DNA from: Nymphaea colorata
Lineage: Eukaryota > Streptophyta > Magnoliopsida > Nymphaeales > Nymphaeaceae
Assembly (NCBI RefSeq): GCF_008831285.2
Contig: NC_045149.1
Span: 5,199,500 to 5,263,499, forward strand
Direction: 5' to 3'
DNA: 64,000 nucleotides
A program made the translations under genes and the position numbers. This document shows positions 575 through 60,803 of the stretch, one piece after another. The notes under the pieces were generated by a model. The model was not told where the DNA came from, ran no database searches, and saw only the letters and a list, made by a program, of their open reading frames with translations. Numbering within the stretch: position 1 is the first letter of the stretch; the number at the start of each line of letters is the position of its first letter.

Positions 575-18145
<17,571 letters not shown>

Positions 18146-35170: not shown

Positions 35171-35176
35171 GGAGGG
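35169..35176 (+). promoter_or_regulatory. Polypurine tract before LTR 2
   Basis: AAGGAGGG, six bases before the LTR (AAGGAGGGTGTATA/TGATACG). The same tract precedes LTR 3 (43503-43510), LTR 4 (51183-51190) and LTR 5 (58586-58593). It is the expected plus-strand priming site. Confidence 0.7.
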
Positions 35177-35182
35177 TGTATA

Positions 35183-38100: not shown

Positions 38101-39541
38101 TCCGCGCCACCCCTTGCCTCTTGGTAAGTGGCGTCCTCTCATCTCCCTCTTTCTTAGTTAGGAAGCCGCCACCTGGCCTCATCACACCTTAGGAACTCTT
38201 GACCAGTCGAGTCAACCCTCACCAGCTAGGAAAGACCTTAGCCGAGTCCACCTTGCTCCTCCTTAGGAAAGTCCTCACCGCGTTAACACTTACTCGTTTT
38301 GAGCAAGTCTTCATGCGCAAACTTAGACAACCTCCCTAAGTCGACCTCACCCATTTTGGTAACCCACGTCCTTGAGCCTCCTTTCCTCTTATTCTGGAAA
38401 GTAGCCCACGGTCATAAGGCAGCCACAGTCAACGTTGCCTAATTGACTAGAACCCACTTGCACGGCTAGACCCAAGCCGCACCTTCCGCACGCACCTACC
38501 TCACGACCTTAGTGTCTTGACTTGATTCAAGTCAACCCAGCCGCATCTGATCCTAAGCCGAGTTGTAGTCAACCTTGTCCCTGCTGACCCTTAGCCTTGA
38601 CTTAGCTCACCTAAAACCGACCTAGCCAGCCATCCGTAGCCGGACCTCCCTCGTAGCTAGGTCTGCCCGAGCTCTAGACCGAGCTCTTCTCCTTCCCGTA
38701 GTTAGGATCTCCCGGGTTCTAGATCGAACCCTTCCCTGCCCGAAGGTTCTCCCCATTCACAGCGGGACCCTTCCACCTCCGGCACACCTCTTGCTGCCGC
38801 CTCCCCTTCACGGCCAGGAGGGCCTCTTCAGCAGTAGCACGTCACTTGCTGCTGTCTCTCTCTCATGGCCAGGATGGCCGTTTTCCAGCAACTAGCCGGC
38901 GTCCCTAGCCGGTCACTTGGAGACTTCCGGCGTCAAATCCATAACGCTGCGCGGATCCAGCTGCAGCCCTCTTCCCTGGAGTCATCCCCTCCTTGTTGCT
39001 GCATTGCCCGAGGTCAGGAATTCACCTCGCGGCACCTTGCTGACAGCCAAGACTAGCTTGGCCGGTAACGCCCTCTCACTCCCTTGTAGTATCGCGGGTC
39101 GGGTGCACTTTGCTTTTGTATTTGCTTGAGCCCGGCTTCGGCCTTGGTTGATTCCAGCGGTTCCTCGACGGCCCTTGGCCTAGACACGACCGCTAATCGA
39201 CGAGCCTACCTAGGGTATTGGGTGTGGTTCGTTACGTGTAGTTATGGTTTGTGTGGTTTGATGGTTTGCATTGAGTGAGTTGCGAGAGTACTTTTGTATC
39301 GCGCACGCTTGTACGGCCTCAAATCCCACGTAGCTTTCTGTAGTAGGTTTTGCTTTAGTTAGGTTTTTGGGATTACCCTTCCGTGTATTCACGTCCTATT
39401 GGGTTTGCGCCGGGGTCCTGTCCGGCCGGGTAGTTTCTTGTATTGATTTGTTTAGGTTTCTTTGGTCTAGATTCCTCGAGGCGACCTTGGCAGTAGGACC
39501 TCGACTCCTTGGGTCGGCCAGTTGGGGTCGGGATCCTAACA
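35183..39541 (+). repeat. LTR 2 (complete, 4359 bp)
   Basis: TGATACGAGCC at the start and GGATCCTAACA at the end give canonical TG...CA termini, directly followed by ATTGGTATCAGAGC. It has the purine tract on its left and the primer site on its right, so it serves as 3' LTR of unit 1 and 5' LTR of unit 2. Confidence 0.92.
37661..37763 (+). promoter_or_regulatory. Candidate LTR promoter: G-box plus TATA (LTR 2)
   Basis: CACGTG at 37661-37666 and GGTATAAACCC with TATAAAC at 37757-37763. The spacing and context match the other complete LTRs. Confidence 0.4.
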
Positions 39542-39681: not shown

Positions 39682-39712
39682 CTGATACCAATCTAACAAT
39701 TGGTATCAGAGC
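39682..39712 (+). promoter_or_regulatory. Second primer-binding-site copy inside a hairpin, unit 2
   Basis: CTAACAATTGGTATCAGAGC is repeated here (the site TGGTATCAGAGC at 39701-39712), 157 bp after the first copy. It is preceded by CTGATACCAAT, which pairs perfectly with ATTGGTATCAG to form an 11-bp stem with a 6-base loop (39682-39709). Confidence 0.75.
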
Positions 39713-40578: not shown

Positions 40579-43269
40579 ATGAGGTGCTCGTCTAGTAGAT
40601 CGAAAATGACATTTATATTCGTGAAGATACGTTGATCCATGGATAGAGTTGGGACCAAGGCCCAAAGTGGACTTATGTCCAAGTAGGCAGTAATCCCGAG
40701 TGCGACTTGAGACTCCGACACCCTAGCATAAAAGGGCGTTACTTTTAGTTGGCCATACATAAGGACACCCAAGAAATGTGGATCGCCAAAATCACTTATA
40801 CGGGTAGACTTATAGTGGCTGGATACGAAGTAGAACATCGAGATTGGGCGCCAATCTACCATGGAGAAGTTATCCAAGTTGGGTTCTCAAAATTCCGCCT
40901 AGTGCTAGAAGAAAGACTCTCCCCCGTGGCCGAGAAGCAAAAAGAATATTATTATGAGCCCAACGACGAAGATGAGCATTATGTGCAGAATGACCAAAGC
41001 ACAAGGTCTCTTACGTGGGACGAAGTGCTCAAAAAGATGAACGCGATGCTCGACAGGATGGATCACAGAGTGTCAATCAGAAATAAGAAAACAACCAGCC
41101 TATGTCACCTGGGTGCGTTTCCTTTGAGCTCGCACCCGCACCCGACGCGTTGCGGGTGCGGGTGCGCTCCAGGTGCGCACCCAATCAGCACCCGATGATG
41201 GGCTCGCACCCAAACCGCACCCGGGGGTTGGATCTAGTTCCGAGTCGAAACCAAATCCAAACCAAGTTCATCTGCGTGTATGGTTTGGATCTGGATCTGA
41301 TTTCAAAATGAAACCAAATAAAAAATCCACAAAATCAAATCCACCATTCTCACCCGTCGCCGTTAAATCTAATTTAAGACATCTATAGATATATTATATG
41401 TCCTCTTTTTTCTTTCAAAAAAAACGATAAAGGACTAAAGAATGGTGGCTTTCATATAAAACGATCAGTTTGCCTTTTTTTTCAAACATTTCTTTTTTTA
41501 TTTTTTCCCACTATCATAAAATGTATAATTTTAACTGTGTTATTCAATTTCTACGAAAAATTAATAATAATAATAATAATAATATTAATATTAATATTAA
41601 TAAAATATCTTTACCGCACCGCCGCACCTAATTTTTTTGAGATGTGCCGCACCGGCATCGACACCCGCACCCCGCACTCAGGTGACATAGCAACCAGCAA
41701 TAATAGACAGATTGAGCTTGCTACAGAGTCGGATACTCACACGGAATCAGATTCGTCTAGTGAGGATGAAAAATCCTCTCCTTCTGCAAAGACGCCTATG
41801 GAAATTATGCCAAAAGAGTATAAGTCTGAAAGCGAAGAAGAGACTTCGTCCGAATCTGAAGATAGCAGTAGTACCGGTTCTTCAAGTGATGAAGAAATAG
41901 AGTCGTCAAGTAGAGGGCGCACAAATAAAAACGCCCTCAAGCCTTCAGATCGTGCGAAAGTTGAAAATTCAGAAAAGGGGATTCTTGGAGCCCCTCCTAC
42001 CTCTATCCCTAGTAGCAGCACGAGTATCACGTCAAAAGATACTAAAGGCATACTTGGCCCAGCCAAGACAATCAGTGCTACACGGCCTTTGGAATGGGTT
42101 CAACATAGAGCAACAAATGAGAACCAAAGGCCCAACCAGCAGAACGAGTCAGTAAGACGAAGAGACACAAAGCCCTCCAATGGCATTTACGAAGGACTAC
42201 TTCCCTTACCTAAACCTTCCAAGACGACAGAACAAGAGAAATTACGGGAAAGTAATAGTGCGTGTCAAAACTCGAATGAAGGGTGCTCATCTAGCCTAAC
42301 ACGAGCAGAAAGTAGGGCGACACCTCTTGAAGGACAAACGCCTGAGGGAAGTCCTAAAGAGAGGCTAAGACAGAGCAACGAAGAAATCTTCACCCTAGCT
42401 TCACCTTTCAGATGGGCAGATGAGCCATGGAATCATGAAACCCGTGAGCAAACAAAGATAGAAACAATGGGGCAGCCAGCCACGGGCAGCAAAGGGTTAT
42501 TACCACCTCCTAGTACCCTTACGAGTAAGAACCAACCTAAGGAGGGTGGTATGGATCACGACTTCTTAGAGTCTCCCAACAAGAAAGTGCAGAAGAAACT
42601 CCAACACTGGGCGACTCAAGAATTGGCAAGTCAAAACGCCAAAGTAGATAGAGCCCAAGACAAGAGACTCCCTCTTGTTACGCACCAAGCAGGAAAAGAG
42701 GTAGTTGCCGCCTCTATCAGAAACAATAAGGGGTCTAATAAACCTGGGTGTAAGCAAAGAACCAAACCGCTTAACATCCGGGAGCAGTTCGAAGAAGAGA
42801 TCCTAGCAATGACAGACAGAATCCTCCCTGAATCAAAAGATGAAAAAGAAAGCTCAGGTGAGGAACGTCATGACCTTAAGGTGACAGAAATAGGAGCAGC
42901 CAATGATCAGTACACCGTGTCCACCTTCACCTCTTCCCAGCGCAAGATACAGTCTAGGAAAGGTGGTCGGCAACGTAACTTACCAACTCTGGGAAATTAT
43001 ATAGAAAAACTCTACCGAGAGCGTTGGAGAGCGTACCAGTTTCCAGACTCTCCAAACTATAGTCGGGAGTTAAGGGATCATCAAGACTCCCTTAACCAAC
43101 ACATGCAAGGCTTATTATTAGGCCCCAACTACAATGAGCGCGCAGTGGCCTGTCCTAGTGAGCAGCAACACTTGGCAATCGCAGAATCACGGGCAGACCA
43201 CCACACGGAAAGCGAGCTTAAGCGGAAGAAAACAGCTGCAAGGGCGGCAAAGGCTTCACATCGGACAAC
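40579..43269 (+). pseudogene. FHA-like gene, broken copy of unit 2, interrupted by a hAT element
   Basis: It shares the 28-bp deletion and the stop in the FHA-like region (TAG at 40746-40748) with unit 1. A 591-bp hAT element sits at 41100-41690, ending the 5' part at 41198. The 579-codon open frame at 41537-43276 is a chance fusion of the element's right part with the gene's middle. An 11-bp deletion between GCGC repeats near 43140 shifts the C-terminal frame, which ends at 43276. Confidence 0.78.
41100..41690. mobile_element. Non-autonomous hAT element inside unit 2
   Basis: A perfect 8-bp target duplication CAACCAGC (41092-41099 and 41691-41698) flanks terminal inverted repeats CTATGTCACCTGGGTGCG and CTATGTCACCTGAGTGCG (17 of 18 identical). 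The 591 bp are GC-rich with GGTGCG repeats at the ends and AT-rich in the middle, including an (AATAAT)n run. There is no transposase. It is absent from units 1, 3 and 4, so it inserted into unit 2 after the array's units separated. Confidence 0.92.
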
Positions 43270-43502
43270 TGCCTAGAGATTACGGCCCCAAACGGATGCA
43301 TCAAGAAACCACGAGTAAGACAACTCGGGTCTTCACTCGGGAGTTTAAGAAAGGGCCGAGAGGATGCTTCCTCAACCAGAGGAACTCCCTTGCCGTACTA
43401 CCCCGAGATTATGGACCAAAAGAAAAACTTATGTGGGTAGCACGTGGAACTCAGACCCATCCGGAGAAAGGTAAAGTAAGAGCTTGGGGACAAGCTCATT
43501 TT

Positions 43503-43510
43503 AAGGAGGG
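43503..43510 (+). promoter_or_regulatory. Polypurine tract before LTR 3
   Basis: AAGGAGGG followed by TGTATC and the LTR start. Confidence 0.7.
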
Positions 43511-43516
43511 TGTATC

Positions 43517-46500
43517 TGATACGAGCCAAAAATCCAGCCAGCTTGTAAGGGCTGAACCGAGGACCAAGCAAGGTCCGACTAGGCTCGTAAGGGCTAGGCC
43601 AGCTACAGAGGAAACTATACAGCTTGGAGTTCTTGCAGTGGGCGGAGCGGGCGGAGCAACAACGGCCAAGCGCGGGGAAAAATGGATTAAACCTCAAGGT
43701 GGCCTTGATCCGTTTTTAGGACTTTTCCGAACTTGAATGGTCTAACCTATGGTCGAGTCCTAACCCGAGTTCACACGAGGTAGTCTAGGTCGAACCTAGG
43801 CAAAAGGGGGTTGAGCCGGTCCAAGTTCAACCATGCGCCCAAGCAAGTGGATCCGAGTGATCCACGGACCATTTTATTTGGACGGATAGTGTCCCTTAGA
43901 TCTGATTTATTTGGATTCGTTTTTAGATCCATTGAGTTCTGTTTTTGGTTTTAAGTTACTTTTTTAGTGAACCGGTTCGGAATGTGAACCGAGTTGCTTA
44001 GGATGTTATTTAAGTAATTGATTTCATGTAATCAGTATGCTTTTGAAAATAATGAATTAATTGGAGGTGTGTTGGGCGGAATGCCCTTTCTCTCTCTCGT
44101 ATTCTCCTTGGCTCACCCCTCTCCCACGGTGGTCTCCCTTCTCTCCTTGGCGTCCCTCCTCACCCATGGCGCAACGTCTTCTTCCTCCACTCGTCCTCAA
44201 GGATTCTCCACGCCCTAGCGTCACTCCTCATGGCGTCCTCTTCAATCCAGCCCCCTAGGTGAAGGACGACATCCCTTTCACCCTGTATCCAGCCGAAGGT
44301 CTTCCTCTTCTCTACTTTGTTTTCTGGTTTCTTTCTCTTCCCCTCGACCTAAGGATAGCAGCAAGCTCCGGCGCGCGGCGTCTCCAAACGGACCACGAGA
44401 ATACCCCACGAGCATTTCGAAGTCGATCGGTGCCTTCCTTCTCAAGCACAAAGAAGGTTGTGAGGCTGTCTTCTTCCCGAGAAGGCTGCAGCAGCTTGGG
44501 CGACCTGGTTTCTGCAGCATACGACATCAAAAGTAGCGTAAGAGAATAAAGTTAGTACGTAGAGAAAACAAGAAGAGTTGGTGAGCAACACTTTGCTCGG
44601 ATTTGATATTGAGTTCAGCTAAAAGGTGGATTTCATTCCCTCGGTGTACACCAAAGAGTTTGAGCTCTCATCCCACGGCTGAAAACAACACCAAATTCCT
44701 GCTTATGCGTCTCAAGAAATCCTTGGCATTCTTGAGTTCTTTCCCCCACGCTACGCACGAAGGTTTCCAACGAGCGTCCTCAAAAAGGGCCCTTTGGTTT
44801 CCTCCGTTTGTCTCAATGTTGACGCACAAAACCAGCAAGCTAGGAGGCTTGCAAACGTGCAGCAAGGGGCGACTAAACAACAAGAAAATTACTTAGAAAA
44901 AGGTCGCCCCATCAAAAGGAATCCAACGGCGAAAGTAGAGCTTCAATCGGATCGTTATGCACATGTTTAAGGTCTCGGCCTGAATTCTGCAACTTCGGTG
45001 AACATTCAAGTGATTCCGGCCAAATTTTGGTCAATTCCGGCGTGGTCCATATTATCCCTGATCGTGGAAAGAAGAAACTTCAGTTTAAGGGTATTCTGGT
45101 CATTGTTGGGAGGAGCGCACTAGGGCAAAACACCCAAGCCACCGGTGCTTACTCGCACGTACCTTGGCAGCCGGTTCTTCATTTGTTAAGTCCCCTCTCC
45201 TTCCTTGTTGTGTTTAATCCCTACCGTTGGAGTCGCCATGTGTCAGCCATCCCCTTGGCCTTCCTGATTGACCCAGCCACCTGTCCCACTTGGATGATTC
45301 GGTCCCAGCCAAGAATCCTCCAAGACCCCATCGTATTCCCCAAAATTAGCGAGATCCCCTCTTGTCGGTACCCAATTCCGATTTTGTTGCCTTGCCTTTT
45401 GTCAACCGAGATTCCTCTTTGATCTCAGCCCTTGGTGTTGCCACATGCCCTAATGTTAGCCTACATCCACTGCCACCTCACCAGCTAGCTTCCCCTCGAC
45501 GAGTAGCCTGACCCCACACGTTTTCTCATTCTCCATCGCCAAGTCCCCTTACCGCTTCCTTAGCCCCTTCACGCGTCTTTCCATTTTGGTGGAGCTTTGT
45601 GAAGGCGCCACCTGCTGCTATCCCCTAATCCGGTCCCTACCATCACGCCAGTCCAGTCCCTCTCCATCTGCCACCTCAACAGCCAGCCCTTGCCCCTGGC
45701 CTCACACGAGATTCCCTCCTCCATCGTCAAGCCCCTTGCCGTTTTCTTAGAAGCCTTCACGCGGTTTCCCATTTGGAAGTGAAGCCATAATGGACCGCCA
45801 CCTCCTACTTACCAAAACCCATTCCCTTCCTTTACGCTAGTCAACCCAGCTCGTCTCCACCAAGCATGTCTCCACCTCCAGCTTCCTAATCATTACCCAC
45901 CTAAACCGAGCAAGCTCCCTCCTTCCATCTCACCACCCATTCCCTTGTAGGCCCCACGTGTTCCACTTGTCACCCGTGGAGTCCACCTTTGTCTCGCATC
46001 TCCTTTCCCCTTTCCTTTTCCCCATCGTCCCTAAATCCTCTCGCATAAGGTATAAACCCTGCCACCTCATATTCTCCCCTTTGGTATTAGTCAACCTTAC
46101 CCTTTAGCCCTTACCTTTCCAAATCTCACCTGGTTTACCCTCTTGGTCCGAGCAAAGGAGAAGAAGGAGTCCCCACGCGCCTAACGTTTAAGACTTACCT
46201 TTTTGGCATAGGCCACGTGCCTCCCCTTCCTTACGAATTAGGAAGAAAGCCGAGCCAATTCCCTCCTTATTCTTTAGGAAGGAAATTGGAATCAATTCCT
46301 GATTCGCTAGTCTCTCTCTAGCGATCCTCTTAGCTCTAATTTCCATTTTGGAATTAGACGCCCCTTTTTCATCCTCTACCGTAGGAAGGAAATCTCCACG
46401 CCACCCCTTGCCTCTTGGTAAGTGGCGTCCTCTCATCTCCCTCTTTCTTAGTTAGGAAGCCGCCACCTGGCCTCATCACACCTTAGGAACTCTTGACCAG

Positions 46501-47835
46501 TCGAGTCAACCCTCACCAGCTAGGAAAGACCTTAGCTTAGTCCACCTTGCTCCCCCTTAGGAAAGTCCTCACCGTGTTAACACTTACTCGTTTTGAGCAA
46601 GTCTTCACGCGCCAACTTAGACAACCTCCCTAAGTCGACCTCACCCATTTTGGTAACCCACGTCCTTGAGCCTCTTTTCCTCTTATTCTGGAAAGTAGCC
46701 CACGGTCATAAGGCAGCCAAAGTCAACGTTGCCTAATTAACTAGAACCCACTTGCACGGCTAGACCCAAGCCGCACCTTCCGCATGCACCTACCTCACGA
46801 CCTTAGTGTCTTGACTTGATTCAAGTCAACCCAGCCGCATCTGATCCTAAGCCAAGTTGTAGTCAACCTTGTCCCTGATGACCCTTAGCCTTGACTTAGC
46901 TCACCTAAACCCGACCTAGCCAGCCATCCGTAGCCGGACCTCCCTCGTAGCTAGGTCTGCCCGAGCTCTAGACCGAGCTCTTCTCCTTCCCGTAGTTAGG
47001 ATCTCCCGGGTTCTAGATCGAACACTTCCCTGCCGGAAGGTTCTCCCCATTCACAGCGGGACCCTTCCACCTCCGGCACACCTCTTGCTGCCGCCTCCCC
47101 TTCACGGCCAGGAGGGCCTCTTCAGCAGTAGCACGTCACTTGCTGCTATCTCTCTCTCACGGCCAGGAGGGCCGTTTTCCAGCAACTAGCCGGCGTCCCT
47201 AGCCGGTCACTTGGAGACTTCCGGCGTCAAATCCATAACGCTGCGCGTATCCAGCTGCAGCCCTCTTCCCCGGAGTCATCCCCTCCTTGTTGCTGCATTG
47301 ACCGAGGTCAGGAATTCACCTCGCGGCACCTTGCTGACAGCCAAGACTAACTTGGCCGGTAACGCCCTCTCACTCCCTTGTAGTATCGCGGGTCGGGTGC
47401 ACTTTCCTTGTGTATTTGCTTGAGCCCGGCTTCGGCCTTGGTTGATTCCAGCGGTTCCTCGTCGGCCCTTGGCCTAGACACGGCCGCTAATCGACGAGCC
47501 TATCTAGGGTATTGGGTGTGGTTTGTTACGTGTAGTTATGGTTTGTGTGGTTTGATATTTTGCATTGAGTGAGTTGCGAGAATACTTTTGTATCGCGCAC
47601 GCTTGTACGGCCTCACATCTCACGTAGCTTTCTGTAGTAGGTTTTGCTTTAGTTAGGTTTTTGGGATTACCCTTACGTGTATTCACTTCTTATTGGGTTT
47701 GCGCCGGGGTCCTGTCCGGCCGGGTAGTTTCTTGTATTGATTTGTCTAGGTTTCTTTGGTCTAGATTCCTCGAGGCGATCTTGGTAGTAGGACCTCGACT
47801 CCTTGGGTCGGCCAGTTGGGGTCGGGATCCTAACA
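43517..47835 (+). repeat. LTR 3 (complete, 4319 bp)
   Basis: It has the same TG...CA ends. Two small private deletions are visible against LTR 2. One removes about 27 bp near 43594 (between GGCT and AGCT). The other removes 14 bp near 44354 (one CTAAGG repeat with the text between). Confidence 0.92.
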
Positions 47836-48872: not shown

Positions 48873-51170
48873 ATGAGGTACTCGTCTAGTAGTTCGAAAA
48901 TGGACAAACTCCTTAGCACCTACGAAAATGGCATTTGTATTCGTGAAGATACGTTGATCCAAGGACAGACTTGGGACCAAGGCCCAAAGTGGACTTATGT
49001 CCAAGTAGGCAGTAATCCCGAGTGCGACTTGAGACTCCGACACCCTAACATAAAAGGACGTCACTTTGAGTTGGCCATACATAAGGACACCCAAGAAATG
49101 TGGATCGCCAAAATCACTTATACGGGTAGACTTATAGTGGCTGGATACGAAGTAGAACATCGAGATTGGGCACCAATCTATCATGGAGAAGTTATCCAAG
49201 TTGGGTTCTCAAAATTCCGTCTAGTGCTAGAAGAAAGACTCTCCCCCGTGGCCGAGAAGCAAAAAGAATATTATTATGAGCCCAACGACGAAGATGAGCA
49301 TTATGTGCAGAATGACTAAAGCACAAGGTCTCTTACGTGGGACGAAGTGCTCAAAAAGATGGACGCGATGCTCGATAGGATGGATCACAGAGTGTCAATC
49401 AGAAATAAGAAAACAACCAGCAATAAAAGACAGACTGAGCTTGCTACAGAGTCAGATACTGACACGGAATCAGATTCGTCTAGTGAGGATGAAAAATCCT
49501 CTCCTTCTCCAAAGACGCCTATGGAAATTATGCCAAAAGAGTATAAGTCTGAAAGCGAAGAAGAGACTTCGTCCGAATCCGAAGATAGCAGTAGTACCGG
49601 TTCTTCAAGTGATGAAGAAATAGAGTCGTCAAGTAGAGGGCGCACAAATAAAAACGCCCTCAAGCCTTCAGATCGTGCGGAAGTTGAAAATTCAGAAAAG
49701 GGGATTCTTGGAGCCCCTCCTACCTCTATCCCTAGTAGCAGCACGAGTATCACGTCAAAAGATACTAAAGGCATACTTGGCCCAGCCAAGACAATCAGTG
49801 CCACACGGCGTTTGGAATGGGTTCAACCTAGAGCAACAAATGAGAACCAAAGGCCCAACCAGCAGAACGAGTCAGTAAGACAAAGAGACACAAAGCCCTC
49901 CAATGGCATTTACGAAGGACTACTTCCCTTACCTGAACCTTCCAAGACGACAGAACAAGAGAAATTAAGGGAAAGTAATAGTGCGCGTCCAAACTCGAAT
50001 GAAGGGTGCTCATCTAGCCTAACACGAGCAGAAAGTAGGGCGACACCTCTTGAAGGACAAACGCCTGAGGGAAGTCCGAAAGAGAGGCTAAGATAGAGCA
50101 ACGAAGAAATCTTCACCCTAGCTTCACCTTTTCAGATGGGGCAGCCAGCAAAGGGCAGCAAAGGGTTATTACCACCTCCTAGTACCCTTACGAGTAAGAA
50201 CCAACCTAAGGAGGGTGGTATGGATCACGACTTCTTAGAGTCTCCCAACAAGAAAGTGCAGAAGAAACTCCAACACTGGGCGACTCAAGAATTGGCAAGT
50301 CAAAACGCCAAAGTAGATAGAGCCCAAGTTAAGAGACTCCCTCTTGTTACGCACCAAGCAGGAAAAGAAGTAGTTGCCGCCTCAATCAGAAACAATAAGG
50401 GCTCTAATAAACCCGGGTGTAAGCAAAGAACCAAACCGCTTAACATCCGGGAGCAGTTCGAAGCAGAGCTCCTAGCAATGACAGACAGAATCCTCCCTGA
50501 ATCAGAAGATGAAAAATAAAGCTCAAGTGAGGAACGTTATGACCTTAAGGTGACAGAAATAGGAGCAGCCAGTGATCAGTACACCGTGTCCACCTTCACC
50601 TCTTCCCAGCGCAAGATACAGTCTAGGAAAGGTGGTCGGCAACGTAACTTACCAACTCTGGAAAATTATATAGAAAAACTCTACCCAGAGCGTTGGAGAG
50701 CGTACCAGTTTCCAGACTCTCCAAACAGTAGTCGGGAGTTAAGGGATCATCAAGACTCCCTTAACCAACACATGCAATGCTTATTACTAGGCCCCAACTA
50801 CAGTGAGCGCGCAACAGAAGCGCAGTGGCTTGTCCTAGTGAGCAGCAACACTTGGCAATCGTAGAATCACGGGCAGACCACCACACGGAAAGCGAGCTTA
50901 TGCGGAAGCAAACAGCTGCAAGGGCAGCAAAGGCTTCACATCGGGCAGCAGCCTAGAGATTACGGCCCCAAACGGATGCATCAAGAAACCACGAGTAAGA
51001 CAACTCGGGTCTTCACTCGGGAATTTAGGAAAGGGCCGAGACGATGCTTCCTCAACCAGAGGAACTCTCTTGCCGTACTACCTCGAGATTATGGACCAAA
51101 GGAAAAACTTATGTGGGTAGCACGTGGAACTCAGACCCATCCAGAGAAAGGTAAAGTAAGAGCTTGGGGA
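48873..51170 (+). pseudogene. FHA-like gene, broken copy of unit 3
   Basis: The ATG (48873) and the whole FHA-like region are intact without the 28-bp deletion. The frame then hits TAA at 49317-49319 (CAA in the others). Further stops are at 50094-50096 (from CAG), 50517-50519 (from GAA) and about 50862 (from CAG). A deletion of about 60 bp lies near 50136, between two similar GATGGG/AATGGGGC sequences. Three of the four stops are C-to-T changes, as expected from decay of methylated DNA. Confidence 0.78.
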
Positions 51171-51182
51171 CAAGCTCATTTT

Positions 51183-51190
51183 AAGGAGGG
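51183..51190 (+). promoter_or_regulatory. Polypurine tract before LTR 4
   Basis: AAGGAGGG followed by TGTATC and the LTR start. Confidence 0.7.
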
Positions 51191-51196
51191 TGTATC

Positions 51197-54100
51197 TGAT
51201 ACGAGCCAAAAATCCAGCCAGCTTGTAAGGGTTGAACCGAGGACCAAGCAAGGTCCGACTAGGCTCGTAAGGGCTGGACGTTAGTCCAGCAAGGCAGCTA
51301 GGCCAGCTACAGAGGAAACTATACAGCTTGGAGTTCTTGCAGTGGGCGGAGCAACAACGGCCAAGCGCGGGGAAAAATGGATTAAACCTCAAGGTGGCCT
51401 TGATCCGTTTTTAGGACTTCCCCGAACTTTAATGGTCTAACCTATGGTCGAGTCCTAACCCGAGTTCACACGAGGTAGTCTAGGTCGAACCTAGGCAAAA
51501 GGGGGTTGAGCCGGTCCAAGCTCAACCATGCGCCCAAGCAAGTGGATCCGAGTGATCCACGGACCATTTTATTTGGACGGATGGCGTCCCTTAGATCTGA
51601 TTTATTTGGATTCGTTTTTAGATCCATTGAGTTCCGTTTTTTGTTTTAAGTTGCTTCTTTAGTGAACCGGTTCGGAATGTGAACCGAGTTGCTTAGGATG
51701 TTATTTAAGTCATTGATTTCATGTAATCAGTATGCTTTTGGAAAATAATGAATTGATTGGAGGTGTGTTGGGCGGAATGCCCTTTCTGTCTCTCGTATTC
51801 CCCTTGGCTCACCCCTCTCCCACGGTGGTCTCCCTTCTCTCCTTGGCGTCCCTCCTCACCCATGGCGCAACGTCTTCTTCCTCCACTCGTCCTCCAGGAT
51901 TCTCCATGCCCTAGCTTCCCTCCTCATGGCGTCCTCTTCAATCCAGCCCCTAGGTGAAGGACGACATCCCTTTCACCCTCCATCCAGCCGAAGGTCTTCC
52001 TCTTCTCTACCTTGTTTTCTGGTTTCTTCCTCTTCCCCTCGACCTAAGGAATACGGCCTAAGGATAGCAGCAAGCTCCGGCGCGCGGCGTCTCCAAACAG
52101 ACCACTACCCCACGAGCATTTCGAAGTCGATCGGTGCCTTCCTTCTCAAGCACAAAGAAGGTTGTGAGGCTGTCTTCTTCCCGGGAAGGCTGCAGCAGCT
52201 TGGGCGACCTGGTTTCTGCAGCATACGACATCAAAAGTAGCGCAAGAGAATAAGGTTAGTACGTAGAGAAAACAAGAAGAGCTGGTGAGCAACACGTTGC
52301 TCGGATTTGATATTGAGTTCAGCTAAAAGGTGGATTTCATTCCCTCGGTGTACACCAGAGAGTTTGAGCTCTCATCCCATGGCTGAAAACAGCACCAAAT
52401 TCCTGCTTACGCGTCTCCAGAACTCCTTGGCATTCTTGAGTTCTTTCCCTCACGCTACGCACGAAGGTTTCCAACGAGCTTCCTCAAAAAGGGCCCTTTG
52501 GTTTCCTCCGTTTTTCTCAAGGTTGACGCACAAAACCACCAAGCTAGGAGGCTTGCAAACGTGCAGCAAGGGGCGACTAAACAACAAAAAAATTACTTAG
52601 AAAAAGGTCGCCCCATCAAAAGGAATCCAACGGCGAAAGTAGAGCTTCAATCGGATCGCTATGCATACGTTTAAGGTCTCGGCTTGAATTCTGCAACTCC
52701 GGTGAACATTCAAGTGATTCCGGCAAAATTTTGGTCAATTCCGGCGTGGTCCATATTACCCCTGATCGTGGAAGGAAGAAACTTCAGTTTAAGGGTATTC
52801 TGGTCATTGTTTGGAGGAGCGCACTAGGGCAAAACACCCTAGCCGCCGGTGCTTACTCGCACGTCCCTTGGCAGCCGGTTCTTAATTTGGTAAGTCCCCT
52901 CTCCTTCCTTGTTGTGTTTAATCCCTACCGTTGGAGTCGCCACGTGTCAGTTATCCCCTTGGCCTTCCTGATTGACGCAGCCACCTGTCCCACTTGGATG
53001 ATTCGGTCCCAGTCGAGAATCCTCCAAGACCGCATCGTATTCCCCAAAATTAGCGAGATCCCTCTTGTCGCTACCCAATTCCGATTTTGTTGCCTTGCCT
53101 TTTGTCAACCGAGATTCCTCTTTGATCTCAGCCCTTGGTGTTGCCACATGTCCTAATCCTAGCCTACATCCCCTGCCACCTCACCAGCTAGCTTCCCCCT
53201 CGACGAGTAGCCTGACCCCACACGCTTTCTCATTCTCCATCGCCAAGTCCCCTTACCGCTTCCTTAGGCCCTTCACGCGTCTTTCCATTTTGGTGGAGCT
53301 TTGTGAAGGCGCCACCTACTGCTATCCCCTAATCCGGTCCCTACCATCACGCCAGTCGAGTCCCTCTCCATCTGCCACCTCAACAGCCAGCCCTTGCCCC
53401 TGGCCTCACACGAGATTCCCTCCTCCATCGTCAAGCCCCTTGCCGTTTTCTTAGAAGCCTTCACGCGGTTTCCCATTTGGAAGTGAAGCCATAATGGACC
53501 GCCACCTCCTACTTACCAAAACCCATTCCCTTCCTTTACGCTAGTCAACCCAGCTCGTCTCCACCAAGCATGTCTCCACCTCCAGCTTCCTAATCATTAC
53601 CCACCTAAACCGAGCAAGCTCCCTCCTTCCATCTCGCCACCCATTCCCTTGTAGGCCCCACGTGTTCCACTTGTCACCCGTGGAGTCCACCTTTGTCTCG
53701 CATCTCCTTTCCCCTATCCTTTTCCCCATCGTCCCTAAATCCTCTCACATAAGGTATAAACCCTGCCACCTCATGCTCTCCCCTTTGGTATTAGTCAACC
53801 TTACCCTTTAGCCCTTACATTTCCAAATCTCACCTGGTTTACCCCCTTGGTACGAGCAAAGGAGAAGAAGGAGTCCCCATGCGCCTAACGTTTAAGACTT
53901 ACCTTTTTGGCATAGGCCACTTGCCTCCCCTTCCTTACGAATTAGGAAGAAAGCCGAGCCAATTCCCTCCTTATTCTTTAGGAAGGAAATTGGAATCAAT
54001 TCCTGATTCGCTAGTCTCTCTCTAGCGATCCTCTTAGCTCTAATTTCCATTTTGGAATTAGACACCCCCTTTTCCTCCTCAACCATAGGCAGGAAATCTC

Positions 54101-55539
54101 CGCGTCACCTTTTGCCTCTTGGTAAGTGGCGTCCTCTCATCTCCCTCTTTCTTAGTTAGGAAGCCGCCACCTGGCCTCATCACACCTTAGGAACTCTTGA
54201 CCAGTTGAGTCAACCCTCACCAGCTAGGAAAGACCTTAGCCGAGTCCACCTTGCTCCCCCTTAGGAATGTCCTCACCGCGTTAACACTTACTCGTTTTGA
54301 GCAAGTCTTCACGCGCGAACTTAGACAACCTCCCTAAGTCGACCTCACCCATTTTGGTAACCCACGTCCTTGAGCCTCCTTTCCTCTTATTCTGGAAAGT
54401 AGCCCACGGTCATAAGGCTGCCACACTCAACGTTGCCTAATTGACTAGAACCCACTTGCACGGCCAGACCCAAGCCGCACCTTCCGCACGCACCTACCTC
54501 ACGACCTTAGTGTCTTGACTTGATTCAAGTCAACCCAGCCGCATCTGATCCTAAGCCGAGTTGTAGTCAACCTTGTCCCTGCTGACCCTTAGCCTTGACT
54601 TAGCTCACCTAAACCCGACCTAGCCAGCCATCCGTAGCCGGACCTCCCTCGTAGCTAGGTCTGCCCGAGCTCTAGACCGAGCTCTTCTCCTTCCCGTAGT
54701 TAGGATCTCCCGGGTTCTAGATCGAACCCTTCCCTGCCCGAAGGTTCTCCCCATTCACAGCGGGACCCTTCCACCTCCGGCACACCACTTGCTGCCGCCT
54801 CCCCTTCACGGCCATTAGGGCCTCTTCAGCAGTAGCACGTCACTTGCTGCTGTCTCTCTCTCACGGCCAGGAGGGACGTCTTCCAGCAACTAGCCGGCGT
54901 CCCTAGCCGGTCACTTGGAGACTTCCGGTGTCAAATCCATAACGCTGCGCGGATCCAGCTGCAGCCCTCTTCCCCAGAGTCCTCCCCTCCTTGTTGCTGC
55001 ATTGCCCGAGGTCAGGAATTCACCTCGCGGCACCTTGCTGACAGCCAAAACTAGCTTGGCCGGTAACGCCCTCTCACTCCCTTGTAGTATCGCGGGTCGG
55101 GTGCACTTTGCTTGTGTATTTGCTTGAGCCCGGCTTCGGCCTTGGCTGATTCCAGCGGTTCCTCGATGGCCCTTGGCCTAGACACGACCGCTAATCGACG
55201 AGCCTACCTAGGGTATTGGGTGTGGTTTGTTACGTGTAGTTATGGTTTGTGTGGTTTGATGGTTTGCATTGAGTGAGTTGCGAGAGTACTTTTGTATCGC
55301 GCACGCTTGTACGGCCTCACATCCCACGTAGCTTTCTGTAGTAGGTTTTGCTTTAGTTAGGTTTTTGGAATTACCCTTCCGTGTATTCACGATCTATTGG
55401 GTTTGCGCCGGGGTCCTGTCCGGCCGGGTAGTTTCTTGTATTGATTTGTTTAGGTTTCTTTGGTCTAGATTCCTCGAGGCGATCTTGGCAGTAGGACCTC
55501 GACTCCTTGGGTCGGCCAGTTGGGGTCGGGATCCTAACA
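51197..55539 (+). repeat. LTR 4 (complete, 4343 bp)
   Basis: The ends are TGATACGAGCC and GGATCCTAACA, with an intact primer-binding site after it. It is collinear with LTR 2 with scattered substitutions. Confidence 0.92.
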
Positions 55540-56393
55540 ATTGGTATCAGAGCCTGCTTGGGCTTTAAAGTCACAGAGACAGCGACAGATTTCAAAAGTT
55601 AGTACTTTCAACGGAGTAGACGTCGCAGTTTCCAGCTAGTACTAGGACGGCTTCTTGTGGAGTGGCCACCAACAACCGACTGATACCAATCTAACAATTG
55701 GAATCAGAGCGACCTTGGGGAATTAATCTTGACTTAGCCGCGCTTGGACCAGCGAAGAGTAATCATATGTGCTACAAAAGTTGTTTAGGGCATTAGAAGA
55801 GATTCTGCCCTTAACAAGACGTTTTTGGCCCTGCAACGTGCTAAAAGCCTGAACGGACAGAACCTGTCCGCGGGAGCAGTTCGGCCAAAAGATTACGAAG
55901 TTTCAGAGACTTCCCGAGATCAAAACGAGCTGAAATTTTCAGCATAGTCAGATAACTATCTCCTCTTAGTGCTGACAAAGTTTGAAGTCAAAACTCCATC
56001 ATTTGATATTTCTGTGCGTAAGTCCTTGGGTACCTTAAAACAGTCTGGACTAAGGGTGTGCACAACCGCACCACCCTAGGGTACTTGAGCTCGAAGTTGC
56101 TGTCGAGGCATCAGGCGGATGCGACAGTTTGGCCTCCCACTGTAGGCCCAACTTAGAGCAAAAGATAGTCACCGAGGTGCTAGGCAGGCACGGTGACAGG
56201 TGGAACCAGTTTCCTCCTCCCTTAGCGCACACATGGCAGAAGTGTGGCTGATAGACAACGGGCAGAAAAGTTGATTACAGTGAGTTCTTCGCAGCATAGG
56301 ATTTTTTTAAGAGTGGCAGTGTGTCAGTGTGTTTGGTTTCAGAAGTAGCATAGGATTTGCTTTAGCAGTTTGCTTAATAGATTAGAAGACGGA
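55540..56393 (+). other. Untranslated leader of unit 4, with a deletion
   Basis: It lacks about 186 bp present in units 2 and 3. The sequence jumps from GCGAAGAGTAA to TCATATGTGCTAC at about 55762, and GTAA flanks the missing piece in the other copies. The 66-codon upstream frame is frameshifted. Confidence 0.6.
55542..55553 (+). promoter_or_regulatory. Primer-binding site, unit 4
   Basis: Intact TGGTATCAGAGC next to the LTR 4 end. The downstream second copy (55699-55710) has one mismatch (TGGAATCAGAGC). Confidence 0.88.
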
Positions 56394-58631
56394 ATGAGGT
56401 GCTCGTCTAGTAGATCGAAAATGGACATACTCCTTAGTACCTACGAAAATGGCATTTGTATTCGTGAAGATACGTTGATCCATGGACAGACTTGGGACCA
56501 AGGCCCAAAGTGGACTTATGTCCAAGTAGGCAGTAATCCCGAGTGCGACTTGAGACTCCGACACCCTAGCATAAAAGGGCGTCACTTTGAGTTGGCCATA
56601 CATAAGGACACCCAAGAAATGTGGATCGCCAAAATCACTTATACGGGTAGACTTATAGTGGCTGGATACGAAGTAGAAGATCGAGATTGGGCGCCAATCT
56701 ACCATGGAGAAGTTATCCAAGTTGGGTTCTCAAAATTCCGCCTAGTGCTAGAAGAAAGACTCTCCCCCATGGCCGAGAAGCAAAAAGAATATTATTATGA
56801 GCCCAACGACGAAGATGAGCATTATGTGCAGAATGACCAAAGCACAAGGTCTCTTACGTGGGACGAAGTGCTCAAAAAGATGAACGCGATGCTCGACAGG
56901 ATGGATCACAGAGCGTCAATCAGAAATAAGAAACCAACCAGCGATAATAGACAGATTGAGCTTGCTACAGAGTCGGATACTGACACGAAATCAGATTCGT
57001 CTAGTGAGGATGAAAAATCCTCTCCTTCTGCAAAGACGCCTATGGAAATTATGCCAAAAGAGTATAAGTCTAAAAGCGAAGAAGAGACTTCGTCCGAATC
57101 TGAAGATAGCAGTAGTACCGGTTCTTCAAGTGATGAAAAAATAGAGTCGTCAAGTAGAGGGCGCACAAATAAAAACGCCCTCAAGCCTTCAGATCGTGCG
57201 AAAGTTGAAAGTTCAGAAAAGGGGATTCTTGGAGCCCCTTCTACCTCTATCCCTAGTAGCAGCACGAGTATCACGTCAAAAGATACTAAAGGCATACTTG
57301 GCCCAGCCAAGACAATCAGTGCTACACGGCGTTTGGAATGGGTTCAACCTAGAGCAACAAATGAGAACCAAAGGCCCAACCAGCAGAACGAGTCAGTAAG
57401 ACGAAGAGACACAAAAACCTCCAAAGGCATTTACGAAGAAATCTTCACCCTAGCTTCACCTTTCAGATGGGCAGATGAGCCATGGAATCATGAAACCCAT
57501 GAGCAAACAAAGATAGAAACAATGGGGCAGCCAGCCACGGGCAGCAAAGGGTTATTACCACCTCCTAGTACCCTTACGAGTAAGAACCAACCTAAGGAGG
57601 GTGGTATGGATCACGACTTCTTAGAGTCTCCCAACAAGAAAGTGCAGAAGAAACTCCAACACTGGGCGACTCCAGAATTGGCAAGTCAAAACGCCAAAGT
57701 AGATAGAGCCCAAGACAAGAGACTACCTCTTGTTACGCACCAAGCAGGAAAAGAGGTAGTTGCCACCTCTATCAGAAACAATAAGGGCTCTAATAAACCC
57801 GGGTGTAAGCAAAGAACCAAACCGCTTAACATCTGGGAGCAGTTCGAAGAAGAGCTCCTAGCAATGACAGACGGAATCCTCCCTGAATCAGAAGATGAAA
57901 AAGAAAGCTCAAGTGAGGAATGTCATGACCTTAAGGTGACAGAAATAGGAGCAGCCAGTGATCAGTACACCGTGTCCACCTTCACCTCTTCCCAGCGCAA
58001 GATACAGTCTAGGAAAGGTGGTCGGCAACGTAACTTACCAACTCTGGGAAATTATATAGAAAAACTCTACCGAGAGCGTTGGAGAGCGTACCAGTTTCCA
58101 GACTCTCCAAACTGTAGTCGGGAGTTAAGGGATCATCAAGACTCCCTTAACCAACACATGCAAGGCTTATTACTAGGCCCCAACTACAATGAGCGCGCAA
58201 CAGAAGCGCAGTGGCCTGTCCTAGTGAGCAGCAACACTTGGCAATTGCAGAATCACGGGCAGACCACCACACGGAAAGCAAGCTTAAGCGGAAGCAAACA
58301 GCTACAAGGGCAGCAAAGGCTTCACATCGGACAGCTGCCTAGAGATTACGGCCCCAAACGGATGCATCAAGAAACCACGAGTAAGACAACTCGGGTCTTC
58401 ACTCGGGAATTTAAGAAAGGGCCGAGAGGATGCTTCCTCAACCAGAGGAACTCCCTTGCCGTACTACCCCGAGATTATGGAGCAAAGGAAAAACTTATGT
58501 GGGTAGCACGTGGAACTCAGACCCATCCGGAGAAAGGTAAAGTAAGATCTTGGGGACAAGAAGATCTTGGGGACAAGCTCATTTTAAGGAGGGTGTATTT
58601 GATACGAGCCAAAAATCCAGCCAGCTTGTAG
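56394..58631 (+). CDS. FHA-like-domain protein of the LARD, open copy (unit 4)
   Basis: This is the only uninterrupted copy, 745 codons from the ATG at 56394. The frame extends 8 codons upstream but only from a TTG. Residues about 42-122 resemble an FHA domain: YVQVGSNPECDLRLRHPSIK then GRHFELAI, a WIAKITYTGRLIVAG strand pair, and HGEVIQVGFSKFRLVL. The Ser of the usual phosphothreonine pocket (SxxH) is replaced, while the His is kept. Residues 190-260 are a Ser/Glu/Asp tract. The remainder is polar and low in hydrophobics. Two LPRDYG(P/A)K motifs (648-655 and 691-698) are 43 residues apart. Gag zinc knuckles and pol motifs are absent. Compared with units 1 and 2, 63 codons are missing in frame after about 57436. 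A 17-bp duplication at 58544-58577 shifts the end, so the last codons read into LTR 5. It is a retroelement-borne gene of unknown function, either captured from the host or a family-specific accessory gene. Confidence 0.65.
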   Translation: MRCSSSRSKMDILLSTYENGICIREDTLIHGQTWDQGPKWTYVQVGSNPECDLRLRHPSIKGRHFELAIHKDTQEMWIAKITYTGRLIVAGYEVEDRDWAPIYHGEVIQVGFSKFRLVLEERLSPMAEKQKEYYYEPNDEDEHYVQNDQSTRSLTWDEVLKKMNAMLDRMDHRASIRNKKPTSDNRQIELATESDTDTKSDSSSEDEKSSPSAKTPMEIMPKEYKSKSEEETSSESEDSSSTGSSSDEKIESSSRGRTNKNALKPSDRAKVESSEKGILGAPSTSIPSSSTSITSKDTKGILGPAKTISATRRLEWVQPRATNENQRPNQQNESVRRRDTKTSKGIYEEIFTLASPFRWADEPWNHETHEQTKIETMGQPATGSKGLLPPPSTLTSKNQPKEGGMDHDFLESPNKKVQKKLQHWATPELASQNAKVDRAQDKRLPLVTHQAGKEVVATSIRNNKGSNKPGCKQRTKPLNIWEQFEEELLAMTDGILPESEDEKESSSEECHDLKVTEIGAASDQYTVSTFTSSQRKIQSRKGGRQRNLPTLGNYIEKLYRERWRAYQFPDSPNCSRELRDHQDSLNQHMQGLLLGPNYNERATEAQWPVLVSSNTWQLQNHGQTTTRKASLSGSKQLQGQQRLHIGQLPRDYGPKRMHQETTSKTTRVFTREFKKGPRGCFLNQRNSLAVLPRDYGAKEKLMWVARGTQTHPEKGKVRSWGQEDLGDKLILRRVYLIRAKNPASL
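58544..58577. repeat. 17-bp tandem duplication at the end of the unit 4 gene
   Basis: AAGATCTTGGGGACAAG is present twice in direct succession. The other units have a single copy (AGAGCTTGGGGACAAG). The extra 17 bp change the reading frame of the C-terminus. Confidence 0.9.
58586..58593 (+). promoter_or_regulatory. Polypurine tract before LTR 5
   Basis: AAGGAGGG followed by TGTATT and the LTR start. In this unit the reading frame of the internal gene runs through it. Confidence 0.7.
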
Positions 58632-60803
58632 GGGCTGAACCGAGGACCAAGCAAGGTCCGACTAAGCTCGTAAGGGCTGGACATGAGTCCAGCAAGGCAG
58701 CTAGGCCAGCTACAGAGGAAACTATACAGCTTGGAGTTCTTGCAGTGGGCGGAGGGGGCGGAGAACAACGGCCAAGCGCGAGCAAAAATGGATTAAACCT
58801 CAAGGTGGCCTTGATCCGTTTCTAGGACTTTCCCGAACTTGAATGGTCTAACCTATGGTCGAGTCCTAACCCGAGTTCACACGAGGTAGTCTAGGTCGAA
58901 CCTAGGCAAAAGGGGGTTGAGCCGGTCCAAGCTCAACCATGCGCCCAAGCAAGTGGATCCGAGTGATCCACGGACCATTTTATTTGGATGGATAGCGTCC
59001 CTTAGATCTAATTTATTTGGATTCGTTTTTAGATCCATTGAGTTCCGTTTTTGGTTTTAAGTTGCTTCTTTAGTGAACCGGTTCAGAATGTGAACCGAGT
59101 TGCTTATGATGTTATTTAAGTCATTGATTTCATGTAATCAGTATGCTTTTGGAAAATAATGAATTAATTGGAGGTGTTTTGGGCGGAATGCCCTTTCTCT
59201 CTCTCGTATTCCCCTTGGCTCACCCCTCTCCCACGGTGGTCTCCCTTCTCTCCTTGGCATCCCTCCTCACCCATGGCGCAACGTCTTCTTCCTCCACTCG
59301 TTCTCAAGGATTCTCCACGCCCTAGCGTCACTCCTCATGGCGTCCTCTTCAATCCAGCCCCCTAGGTGAAGGACGACATCCCTTTCACCCTCTATCGAGC
59401 CGAAGGTCTTCCTCTTCTCTACCTTGTTTTCTGGTTTCTTCCTCTTCCCCTCGACCTAAGGAATACGGCCTAAGGATAGCAGCAAGCTCCGGCGCGCGGC
59501 GTCTCCAAACGGACCACGAGAATACCCCACGAGCATTTCGAAGTCGATCGGTGCCTTCCTTCTCAAGCACAAAGAAGGTTGTGAGGCTGTCTTCTTCCCG
59601 GGAAGGCTGCAGCAGCTTGGGCGACCTGGTTTCTGTAGCATACGACATCAAAAGTAGCGCAAGAGAATAAGGTTAGTACGTAGAGAAAACAAGAAGAATT
59701 GGTGAGCAACACGTTGCTCGGATTTGATATTGAGTTTGGCTAAAAGGTGGATTTCATTCCCTCGGTGTACACCAGAGAGTTTGAGCTCTCATCCCACGGC
59801 TGAAAACAGCACCAAATTCCTGCTTACGCGTCTCAAGAACTCCTTGGCATTCTTGAGTTCTTAAGGAGCGTCCTCAAAAAGGGCCCTTTGGTTTCCTCCG
59901 TTTTTCTCAAGGTTGACGCACAAAACCAGCAAGCTAGGAGGCTTGCAAACGTGCAGCATGGGGCGACTAAACAACAAGAAAATTACTTAGAAAAAGGTCG
60001 CCCCATCAAAAGGAATCCAACGACGAAAGTAGAGCTTCAATCGAATCGCTATGCACACGTTTAAGGTCTCGGCCTGAATTCTGCAACTCCGGTGAACATT
60101 CAAGTGATTCCGGCCAAATTTTGGTCAATTTCGGCGTGGTCGACATTACCCCTGATCGTGGAAAGAAAAAACTTCAGTTTAAGGGTATTCTGGTCATTGT
60201 TTGGAGGAGCGCACTAGGGCAAAACACCCTAGCCGCCGGTGCTTACTCGCACGTCCCTTGGCAGCCAGTTCTTCATTTGGTAAGTCCCCTCTCCTTCCTT
60301 GTTGTGTTTAATCCCTACCGTTGGAGTCGCCACGTGTCAGCCATCCCCTTGGCCTTCCTGATTGACCCAGCCACCTGTCCCACTTGGATGATTCGGTGCC
60401 AGCCGAGAATCCTCCAAGACCCCATCGTATTCCCCAAAATTAGCGAGATCCCCTCTTGTCGCTACCTAATTCCGATTTTGTTGCCTTGCCTTTTGTCAAC
60501 CGAGATTCCTCTTTGATCTCAACCCTTGGTGTTGCCACATGTCCTAATCCTAGCCTACATCCCCTGCCACCTCACCAGCTAGCTTCCCCCTCGACGAGTA
60601 GCCTGACCCCACACGTTTTCTCATTCTCCATCGCCAAGTCCCCTTACCGCTTCCTTAGCCCCTTCACGCGTCTTTCCATTTTGGTGGAGCTTTGTGAAGG
60701 CGCCACCTGCTGCTATCCCCTAATCCGGTCCTACCGTCACACCAGTCCAGTCCCTCTCCATCTGCCACCTCAACAGCCAGCCCTTGCCCCTGGCCTCACA
60801 CGA
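58600..60803 (+). repeat. LTR 5 (3' half missing)
   Basis: It is collinear with LTR 4 up to GGCCTCACACGA (60792-60803) and is then replaced by unrelated AT-rich sequence, so about 2.1 kb of the LTR is lost. A private deletion near 59863 removed about 27 bp of the sequence found in the other LTRs. Confidence 0.9.

Follow-up and report, generated by a model that had tools for sequence, protein, structure and literature searches.

A selected FHA-domain gene in a clade of LARD-like LTR retrotransposons of Nymphaea colorata, probable passengers of Ty3/gypsy elements

The locus and its features

The window of this study is a stretch of 64,000 nucleotides from Nymphaea colorata (assembly GCF_008831285.2, contig NC_045149.1, positions 5,199,500 to 5,263,499 of the forward strand), and all window coordinates are counted from its first letter. 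It holds a tandem array of four retrotransposon units with shared long terminal repeats (LTRs), the last of which, unit 4, contains a frame of 745 codons for a protein with a forkhead-associated (FHA) domain. This frame is a real gene, selected at the family level, in an element that resembles a large retrotransposon derivative (LARD) but whose coding internal region places it outside the strict LARD definition. The features of the gene and of its unit are as follows.

51197 to 55539, plus strand: LTR4, the 5' LTR of the open-frame unit, TGATACGAGC...CCTAACA
55542 to 55554, plus strand: primer-binding site (PBS) TGGTATCAGAGCC, directly after the LTR
55680 to 55707, plus strand: hairpin in the leader that contains another PBS-like copy; one arm base differs in unit 4
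56394 to 58631, plus strand: frame of the FHA protein, 745 codons without a stop
56523 to 56726, plus strand: predicted FHA domain, residues 44-111 (Pfam PF00498; family-level profile support)
56769 to 57620, plus strand: middle stretch, residues 126-409, net acidic and Ser/Thr-rich
57621 to 58599, plus strand: C-terminal part, net basic in the window, with blocks common to subfamilies (ERWRAYQFPDSPNCSREL, LPRDYGP)
58586 to 58599, plus strand: polypurine tract AAGGAGGGTGTATT, immediately 5' of the 3' LTR
58600 to 60803, plus strand: LTR5, a partial 3' LTR truncated at 60803 (self-BLAST)

An earlier note on this DNA, made from its letters alone, had described a single 745-codon frame in the internal region of a LARD-type element, and the frame is indeed open throughout. 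Self-comparison of the window gives an LTR length of about 4.3 kb and internal regions of about 3.1-4.0 kb (n=4). The PBS TGGTATCAGAGCC is presumably of the initiator-tRNA-Met type, and a purine tract, AAGGAGGGTGTAT, closes the internal region. An in-frame stretch of 189 bp (63 codons) that the other units have is missing from unit 4; about 17 extra bp near 58550 alter the last codons of its frame, which run into the 3' LTR starting at 58600.

The definition of a LARD includes a non-coding internal region. The window element is like a LARD in its LTRs of more than 4 kb, in having no gag or pol that could be found, in its PBS and polypurine tract, and in its presumed dependence on a partner; it is unlike a LARD in that its internal region codes for one protein under selection. 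Therefore, the LARD assignment of the note holds for size, LTRs, PBS, purine tract and the missing gag and pol, but not for the non-coding internal region.

Domain content of the FHA protein

The FHA pattern proposed for the N-terminus was recovered with the Pfam FHA model (PF00498, cut-off 20.7 bits), which gave 26.1 bits for the whole window protein and 30.0 bits for residues 1-130. The corresponding stretch of two more copies from the window's subfamily, A, scored 29.4 and 22.0 bits, and one whole protein of subfamily A (P0003) fell under the cut-off at 17.5 bits. Subfamilies B, C, and D, described below, scored 21.2, 22.1, and 25.6 bits, respectively, all above the cut-off, and an old FHA element, L072, reached 49.9 bits. 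In searches of PDB, the window sequence alone had 2n84 as its top match (E 0.0036), while a profile of ten subfamily sequences matched 36 distinct PDB sequences at E <=1, with 2n84 at 1.1e-6, Ki-67 at 6.3e-6, CHFR at 9.6e-6, and Rad53 at 3.6e-4; the plant FHA protein DDL (3vpy) was a weak match at 0.13. On these profiles the N-terminus is predicted to form an FHA domain, and it falls in that family rather than with gag matrix or capsid, a placement that would have told against the earlier note. The type III secretion system YscD domain was also considered as its identity; this match is weaker than that of FHA and under its own cut-off. Sortilin matches of the N-terminus are weak and vanish with the ten-subfamily profile.

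The residues by which FHA domains contact phosphothreonine are, we assume, the Arg of GR, the Ser three positions before the conserved His, and the Asn of NGT. The Arg, which follows the invariant Gly, is kept in two of the ten subfamily sequences and the Ser in none of them; one Gly, a Cys-Asp pair, and the conserved His are invariant in all ten. Within subfamily A, the His position is Arg in L018, L024, and L027 and Tyr in unit 2. By its score the predicted domain is therefore a member of the FHA family, but by its phosphothreonine-contact residues it is not. Because the phosphate-contacting Arg is mostly gone and the Ser wholly gone, any contact made by the domain would not be standard phosphothreonine reading.

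A retained fold signal with changed phosphate-contact residues could also be expected of an anti-silencing or RNA-pathway decoy, which would imitate and blunt those FHA proteins of the host that act in small-RNA or DNA-damage pathways, thereby easing transcription of the element. The presence of DDL among the weak PDB matches points in the same direction, and plant transposable elements encoding anti-silencing proteins do exist (VANDAL elements). However, there is no sequence tie to DDL past the fold, the host-like FHA exons lie outside the repeat clade on long branches (see below), and the retention of a product acting in trans for all copies is harder to see in a non-autonomous passenger. 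Such a decoy thus appears unlikely.

The strongly acidic Ser-rich stretch described earlier is present. Its SDTDT and SSSEDE motifs are presumably sites that casein kinase 2 could modify, and the FHA domain could bind this stretch of its own protein. The C-terminal part is net basic in subfamilies A, B, and C and acidic in D, whose frame ends early. Its matches to adenovirus fibre, Prp21, Sen15, and other proteins were set aside, having E values of 0.013 or worse and differing between subfamilies. As had been stated from the letters, neither gag zinc knuckle nor pol is apparent: the frames of subfamilies A-D have no Pfam match to gag, protease, reverse transcriptase, or integrase families, and the simple zinc-knuckle pattern is absent from the FHA protein.

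Selection on the frame

The genome searched for copies comprises 407.8 Mb in 783 contigs, and the window frame matches at least 83 pieces of it (best 40 of 163 candidates scored), the dispersed ones being mostly 80-91% identical. Twenty loci were fetched, with 13 clusters spanning fewer than 1500 query bases skipped, and 23 copies were extracted (19 dispersed and the four window units). Leaving out five of less than 2300 bp gave an aligned set of 18 copies: 14 dispersed ones, 86.3-89.0% identical to unit 4, and the four window units. Three of the 18 are fully open (unit 4, L012, and L027). In 13 dispersed copies compared with L027, 53 of the 82 length differences are divisible by three, shared events being counted once per copy.

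The ratio of nonsynonymous to synonymous substitution (dN/dS) among the 18 copies has a median of 0.41 and a range of 0.35-1.62 (150 of 153 pairs passing the filter). After seven copies more than 95% identical to a kept one were dropped, the remaining 11 copies (55 pairs) gave 0.41 in the frame and 0.94 and 0.99 in the shifted frames, with third positions holding 45% of the differences. The FHA frame of subfamily A is under purifying selection at the family level. A value near 1 across dispersed copies, which would have told against the earlier note, was not found, and a chance open frame is ruled out by the value of 0.41 together with the shifted-frame controls.

One might still regard the frame as a functionless fragment of a host gene, open by chance or through recent capture. 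Three of the four window units are broken, units 1, 2, and 4 differ almost neutrally from one another, and 15 of the 18 aligned copies carry a stop or frameshift. However, the frame-specific dN/dS of 0.41 against shifted-frame controls near 1, an architecture kept at about 31-51% identity, long open frames in several subfamilies, and the stop-free copies of subfamily B (see below) already contradict this explanation, which is very improbable. Selection and presence in several subfamilies instead support an element-specific accessory protein, one of the two origins that the note had offered.

The untranslated leader (about 55759-56393 and its relatives) has a median distance of 0.08, compared with a dS of 0.24 for the frame. 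That the leader is more conserved than synonymous sites suggests a putative cis-acting signal for packaging or regulation.

Subfamilies and origin of the FHA gene

A genome search with an FHA model gave at least 149 matches (best 150 of 164 candidates, with host genes and possible foreign DNA included), many of which sit in open frames of 600-916 codons. Loci were read from three further subfamilies, namely L029 (B, 872 residues), L030 (C, 658 residues), and L071 (D, 770 residues), and each has a TGGTATCAGAGC site and one long FHA-type frame. By BLAST, the window protein and B are 45% identical in the FHA domain and 38% in the C-terminal piece; for C the value is 35% across 454 aligned columns, and for D the pieces give 38% (FHA) and 32%. 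Among the other subfamilies, B matches C at 51% in the FHA domain and D at 31% along most of the protein. The order of FHA domain, middle stretch, and C-terminal blocks is thus kept across A-D at about 31-51% identity. The LPRDYGP block occurs in all four subfamilies (as LPRDYSP in D), and ERWRAYQFPDSPNCSREL is found in A and B, altered in D, and missing from C. A search for subfamily B gave at least 78 matches (best 52 of 554 candidates scored), and at least seven copies are stop-free over all 872 residues at 99-100% identity.

To place these sequences, a tree was built from 30 FHA sequences, 29 of 40 FHA fragments and the window domain; nine near-duplicates and two host-like exons (L034 and L038) were left out, and the status of each row as host, element, or intermediate is our own assignment. 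The 22 repeat-derived sequences form one clade with support of 97/99; evidence from LTR and PBS covers subfamilies A-D, the other repeat sequences being FHA fragments only. Outside this clade fall L032, L033, L035, L041, and L042, which are not one group, and three host-like exons on long branches. The L032-L042 sequences are nearer to standard FHA: the L072 frame, which contains L032, is the one that scores 49.9 bits, and L033 reads GRRPDCD...ISLDH...EHGT.

The single clade fits a capture of the FHA gene in one old event, so that the captured host gene considered by the note is supported in this respect, but a donor gene was not found. The pattern would also fit the capture of an ordinary FHA domain that subsequently lost phosphate reading, the direction of change being inferred. 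L033 and L035 may belong to an older FHA-element lineage. These two more canonical FHA sequences (C1:12108093 and C1:12114888) lie on the same strand 6.8 kb apart, which is tandem-unit spacing. FHA matches unlike the element on four unplaced contigs, C107, C176, C196, and C464 (L073-L076), were set aside, and some of them may come from foreign DNA within the assembly; before its FHA domain, L074 has what we take to be RING-CH-like text. No relatives of the FHA protein were found in the viral contigs or prokaryote genome contigs searched.

Ty3/gypsy partners and mobility

Directly downstream of the old FHA element L072 lies L077, an old Ty3/gypsy element in which protease, reverse transcriptase, and integrase were matched in that order and the gag-position frame has only a sub-threshold Ty3 capsid match. 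The leader before L077 resembles the L072 leader (77% over 210 bp), and the LTR end before L077 weakly resembles subfamily C (62.8% over 156 bp). In L072 itself (4400-7520), the broken remnant of a Ty3/gypsy protease lies downstream of the FHA frame, whose FHA domain is of the more canonical kind. The ancestral FHA element may once have had a downstream protease, or two elements may have fused in L072.

As the first long frame behind the leader, and the only one, the FHA frame has the position of gag, and the FHA protein could be a diverged or replaced Gag that builds or enters particles. The L072 remnant, with 33% identity over 76 residues to the L077 protease and 17.4 bits for RVP_2 (cut-off 20.3), may be counted for this reading; however, its frames are broken, and a neighbouring element could be its source. 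Neither a Pfam gag or capsid match in A-D nor the simple zinc-knuckle pattern was found, and the protein has no BLAST similarity to the L077 gag-position frame, all of which make a Gag improbable. TR-GAG elements are non-autonomous LTR elements that code for one protein in the gag position. The FHA elements are like them in both respects, and a TR-GAG-type coding passenger is what the Gag explanation would make of them, but the FHA protein has no recognised gag domain (no Pfam gag family in A-D) and begins with FHA.

A genome search with the protease found many open frames of 1700-1900 codons (best 150 of 1336 candidates), and LTR ends were taken from three protease-bearing families, C124, C69, and C153. 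The C124 LTR end is 82.9% identical to subfamily B over 1137 bp and 67.6% identical to the window unit over 608 bp, and this similarity ends just past the PBS. The LTR ends of C69 and C153 match FHA elements more weakly than C124; C69 has gag and protease matches within a single open frame of 1780 codons. The open frames that hold the FHA matches listed (at least 149) do not exceed 916 codons, and a fusion of FHA with a full polyprotein was not seen among them. Shared LTR ends with similarity stopping after the PBS are the pattern of a non-autonomous passenger and its putative helper. Dasheng and RIRE2 of rice are such an autonomous/non-autonomous pair with shared LTRs, and the likeness extends to LTR ends whose similarity stops just after the PBS; unlike that pair, the FHA passenger retains a gene of its own.

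In the genomic distribution, FHA and open Ty3/gypsy frames crowd, among the matches listed, at 28-31 Mb of C3 and on the small contigs C69, C387, and C228. This might be read as an integration or chromatin tether, in which the FHA domain would bind a chromatin protein and direct the passenger to partner-rich heterochromatin. However, partners in which no FHA was seen occupy the same regions, so that FHA seems unneeded for it, and the clustering may mirror poor removal there. The tether function suggested in the earlier note is a guess, and we give it a low probability.

A hairpin is present in the leader 135-148 nt after the PBS (CTGATACCA...TGGTATCAG), with arms formed by the PBS sequence and its complement, the latter presumably corresponding to the tRNA 3'-end sequence. 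It is exact in unit 2 (window 39682-39709) and is also found at L011, L012, L013, L015, L018, L024, L026, and L071, the exact form occurring in A as well as in D, the loop differing between the two. The strict pattern had no match in L029, L030, several other A loci, or the C69, C124, and C153 pieces, of which the C124 piece is barely long enough. The hairpin may regulate primer annealing, or it may be a trace of a misplaced PBS copy.

Tandem organisation of the array

By self-BLAST of the window, the units lie head-to-tail in the order LTR-internal-LTR-internal-LTR-internal-LTR-internal-partial LTR, and the LTR copies differ by 0.024-0.034 substitutions per site. The remaining features of the array are as follows.

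27719 to 60803, plus strand: tandem array of four LTR-internal units with shared LTRs and a truncated fifth LTR (self-BLAST)
27721 to 32018, plus strand: LTR1, without the last ~60 bp and the PBS region (self-BLAST)
32832 to 35181, plus strand: unit 1 copy of the FHA frame, broken by a 28-bp deletion and three stops
35183 to 39482, plus strand: LTR2, the part similar to LTR1; the LTR proper extends ~60 bp more (self-BLAST)
40579 to 43513, plus strand: unit 2 copy of the FHA frame, broken by a 28-bp deletion, two stops, a 599-bp insertion, and an 11-bp deletion
43517 to 47776, plus strand: LTR3, the part similar to LTR1; the LTR proper extends ~60 bp more (self-BLAST)
48873 to 51193, plus strand: unit 3 copy of the FHA frame, open across the FHA domain (28.5 bits) but with later stops

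Unit 4, to which the frame 56394-58631 belongs, is the only unit of the array with an open FHA frame. Units 1 and 2 have the same 28-bp deletion and two stops in common, and the unit 2 frame is further broken by the insertion at 41092-41690. The stops of unit 3 number three in one column set and four in another. Pfam gave nothing at E 0.01 for seven other frames of the window; Rfam gave nothing at the gathering score, and no tRNA genes were found.

Tandem units with shared LTRs seem to be a habit of the FHA-element clade, confirmed by sequence for the window and L030 only. The L030 tandem repeat is 99.84% identical over 3066 bp, and a repeat pair in L071 is 99.7% identical over at least 2012 bp; being near-identical, these repeats point to recent insertion or rearrangement. 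Inspection of the match list showed same-strand FHA matches 5-8 kb apart on at least seven contigs (C16, C239, C6, C3, C8, C273, and C1). Head-to-tail tandem arrays of retroelement units are also described for Cassandra, an element of another type, in the available text of PMC7215508.

Proposed biology of the FHA elements

Overall, the window element probably belongs to a large clade of non-autonomous LTR retrotransposons whose members have a single FHA-protein gene, would be satellite-like passengers of Ty3/gypsy elements and would use the protein as an adaptor. Very probably, the LTRs of each element drive its transcription and Ty3/gypsy partners copy and integrate it in trans, in the fashion of satellite and helper. 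The protein itself may, more tentatively, work in cis as an adaptor for the element that encodes it, linking its RNA or cDNA to a protein of the partner or of chromatin. In this role the C-terminal half would hold element RNA or a partner protein, while docking on a chromatin protein or on one of the partner's particle would fall to the FHA domain. Cis preference is known for proteins that bind the RNA encoding them. A gene of use only to other elements is one that a passenger can shed, and therefore the kept gene suggests cis preference, by which selection would keep the gene in an element able to ride without it. Among the possible functions we rank the adaptor as the most likely, followed by anti-silencing, a Gag-like role, or a tether.

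Several observations weigh against these proposals. The acidic C-terminal part of subfamily D counts against a simple RNA-binding role for all subfamilies, and no donor gene was found. Among the best 40 of 741 LTR candidates, none was recognised as a partner of subfamily A, to which the window element belongs. The Ty3/gypsy call for C124, C69, and C153 rests on protease similarity to L077 and on frame length; the PBS of the C124 copy has one mismatch, and the C153 piece shows no PBS pattern. With regard to selection, most aligned copies (15 of 18) are broken, and the leader read in three arbitrary frames gives dN/dS of 0.63-0.81, not 1, so that bias may account for some of the decrease from 1, although 0.41 is still well under the leader values. 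Pairs among units 1, 2, and 4 give 0.89-1.40 (pairs with unit 3, 0.44-0.60), and since the former are near neutral, functionality of the window copy itself is not demonstrated. The claims on fold, transcription, protein, and mobility all derive from sequence.

A possible but more doubtful extension of the passenger interpretation is that these elements form a separate class of satellite retrotransposons, parasites that use the Gag, reverse transcriptase, and integrase of Ty3/gypsy elements and carry a captured FHA protein of their own. The protein would then compete for the partner machinery or evade the host, and one capture would have led to at least ten subfamilies, with gradual loss of phosphate reading and re-use of the FHA scaffold for a new contact. 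Satellite viruses with one gene of their own would be the counterpart of such elements.

Additional domains fixed in a lineage of plant LTR retrotransposons are described, as far as the available text goes, for extra open reading frames (PMC7264820) and for AlkB-bearing Ty3/gypsy elements of orchids (PMC9289625). The FHA elements are similar in having a domain fixed in an LTR lineage; in the text of both reports, however, the extra gene stands beside gag-pol, for which FHA subfamilies A-D gave no match. The screen of PMC9289625, as its main text presents it, took regions marked by reverse transcriptase and would therefore have missed elements like the FHA passengers; the words FHA and forkhead do not occur in that main text. 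In the literature searched with FHA and forkhead-associated terms, which mostly did not extend to subscription journals, no paper was found that describes a retrotransposon with an FHA domain. The papers found there that bring the FHA domain and LTR retrotransposons together concern integrase partners of human endogenous retroviruses and host factors of yeast Ty1.

In general, non-autonomous LTR elements as large as LARDs are regarded as non-coding debris. One captured gene of signalling type that is under selection in deeply diverged subfamilies with recent open copies would show that a passenger can carry an adaptive gene of its own, and it is suggested that searches starting from reverse transcriptase would overlook such proteins. 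The FHA-element clade would allow the competition of passengers with both helpers and host to be addressed directly.

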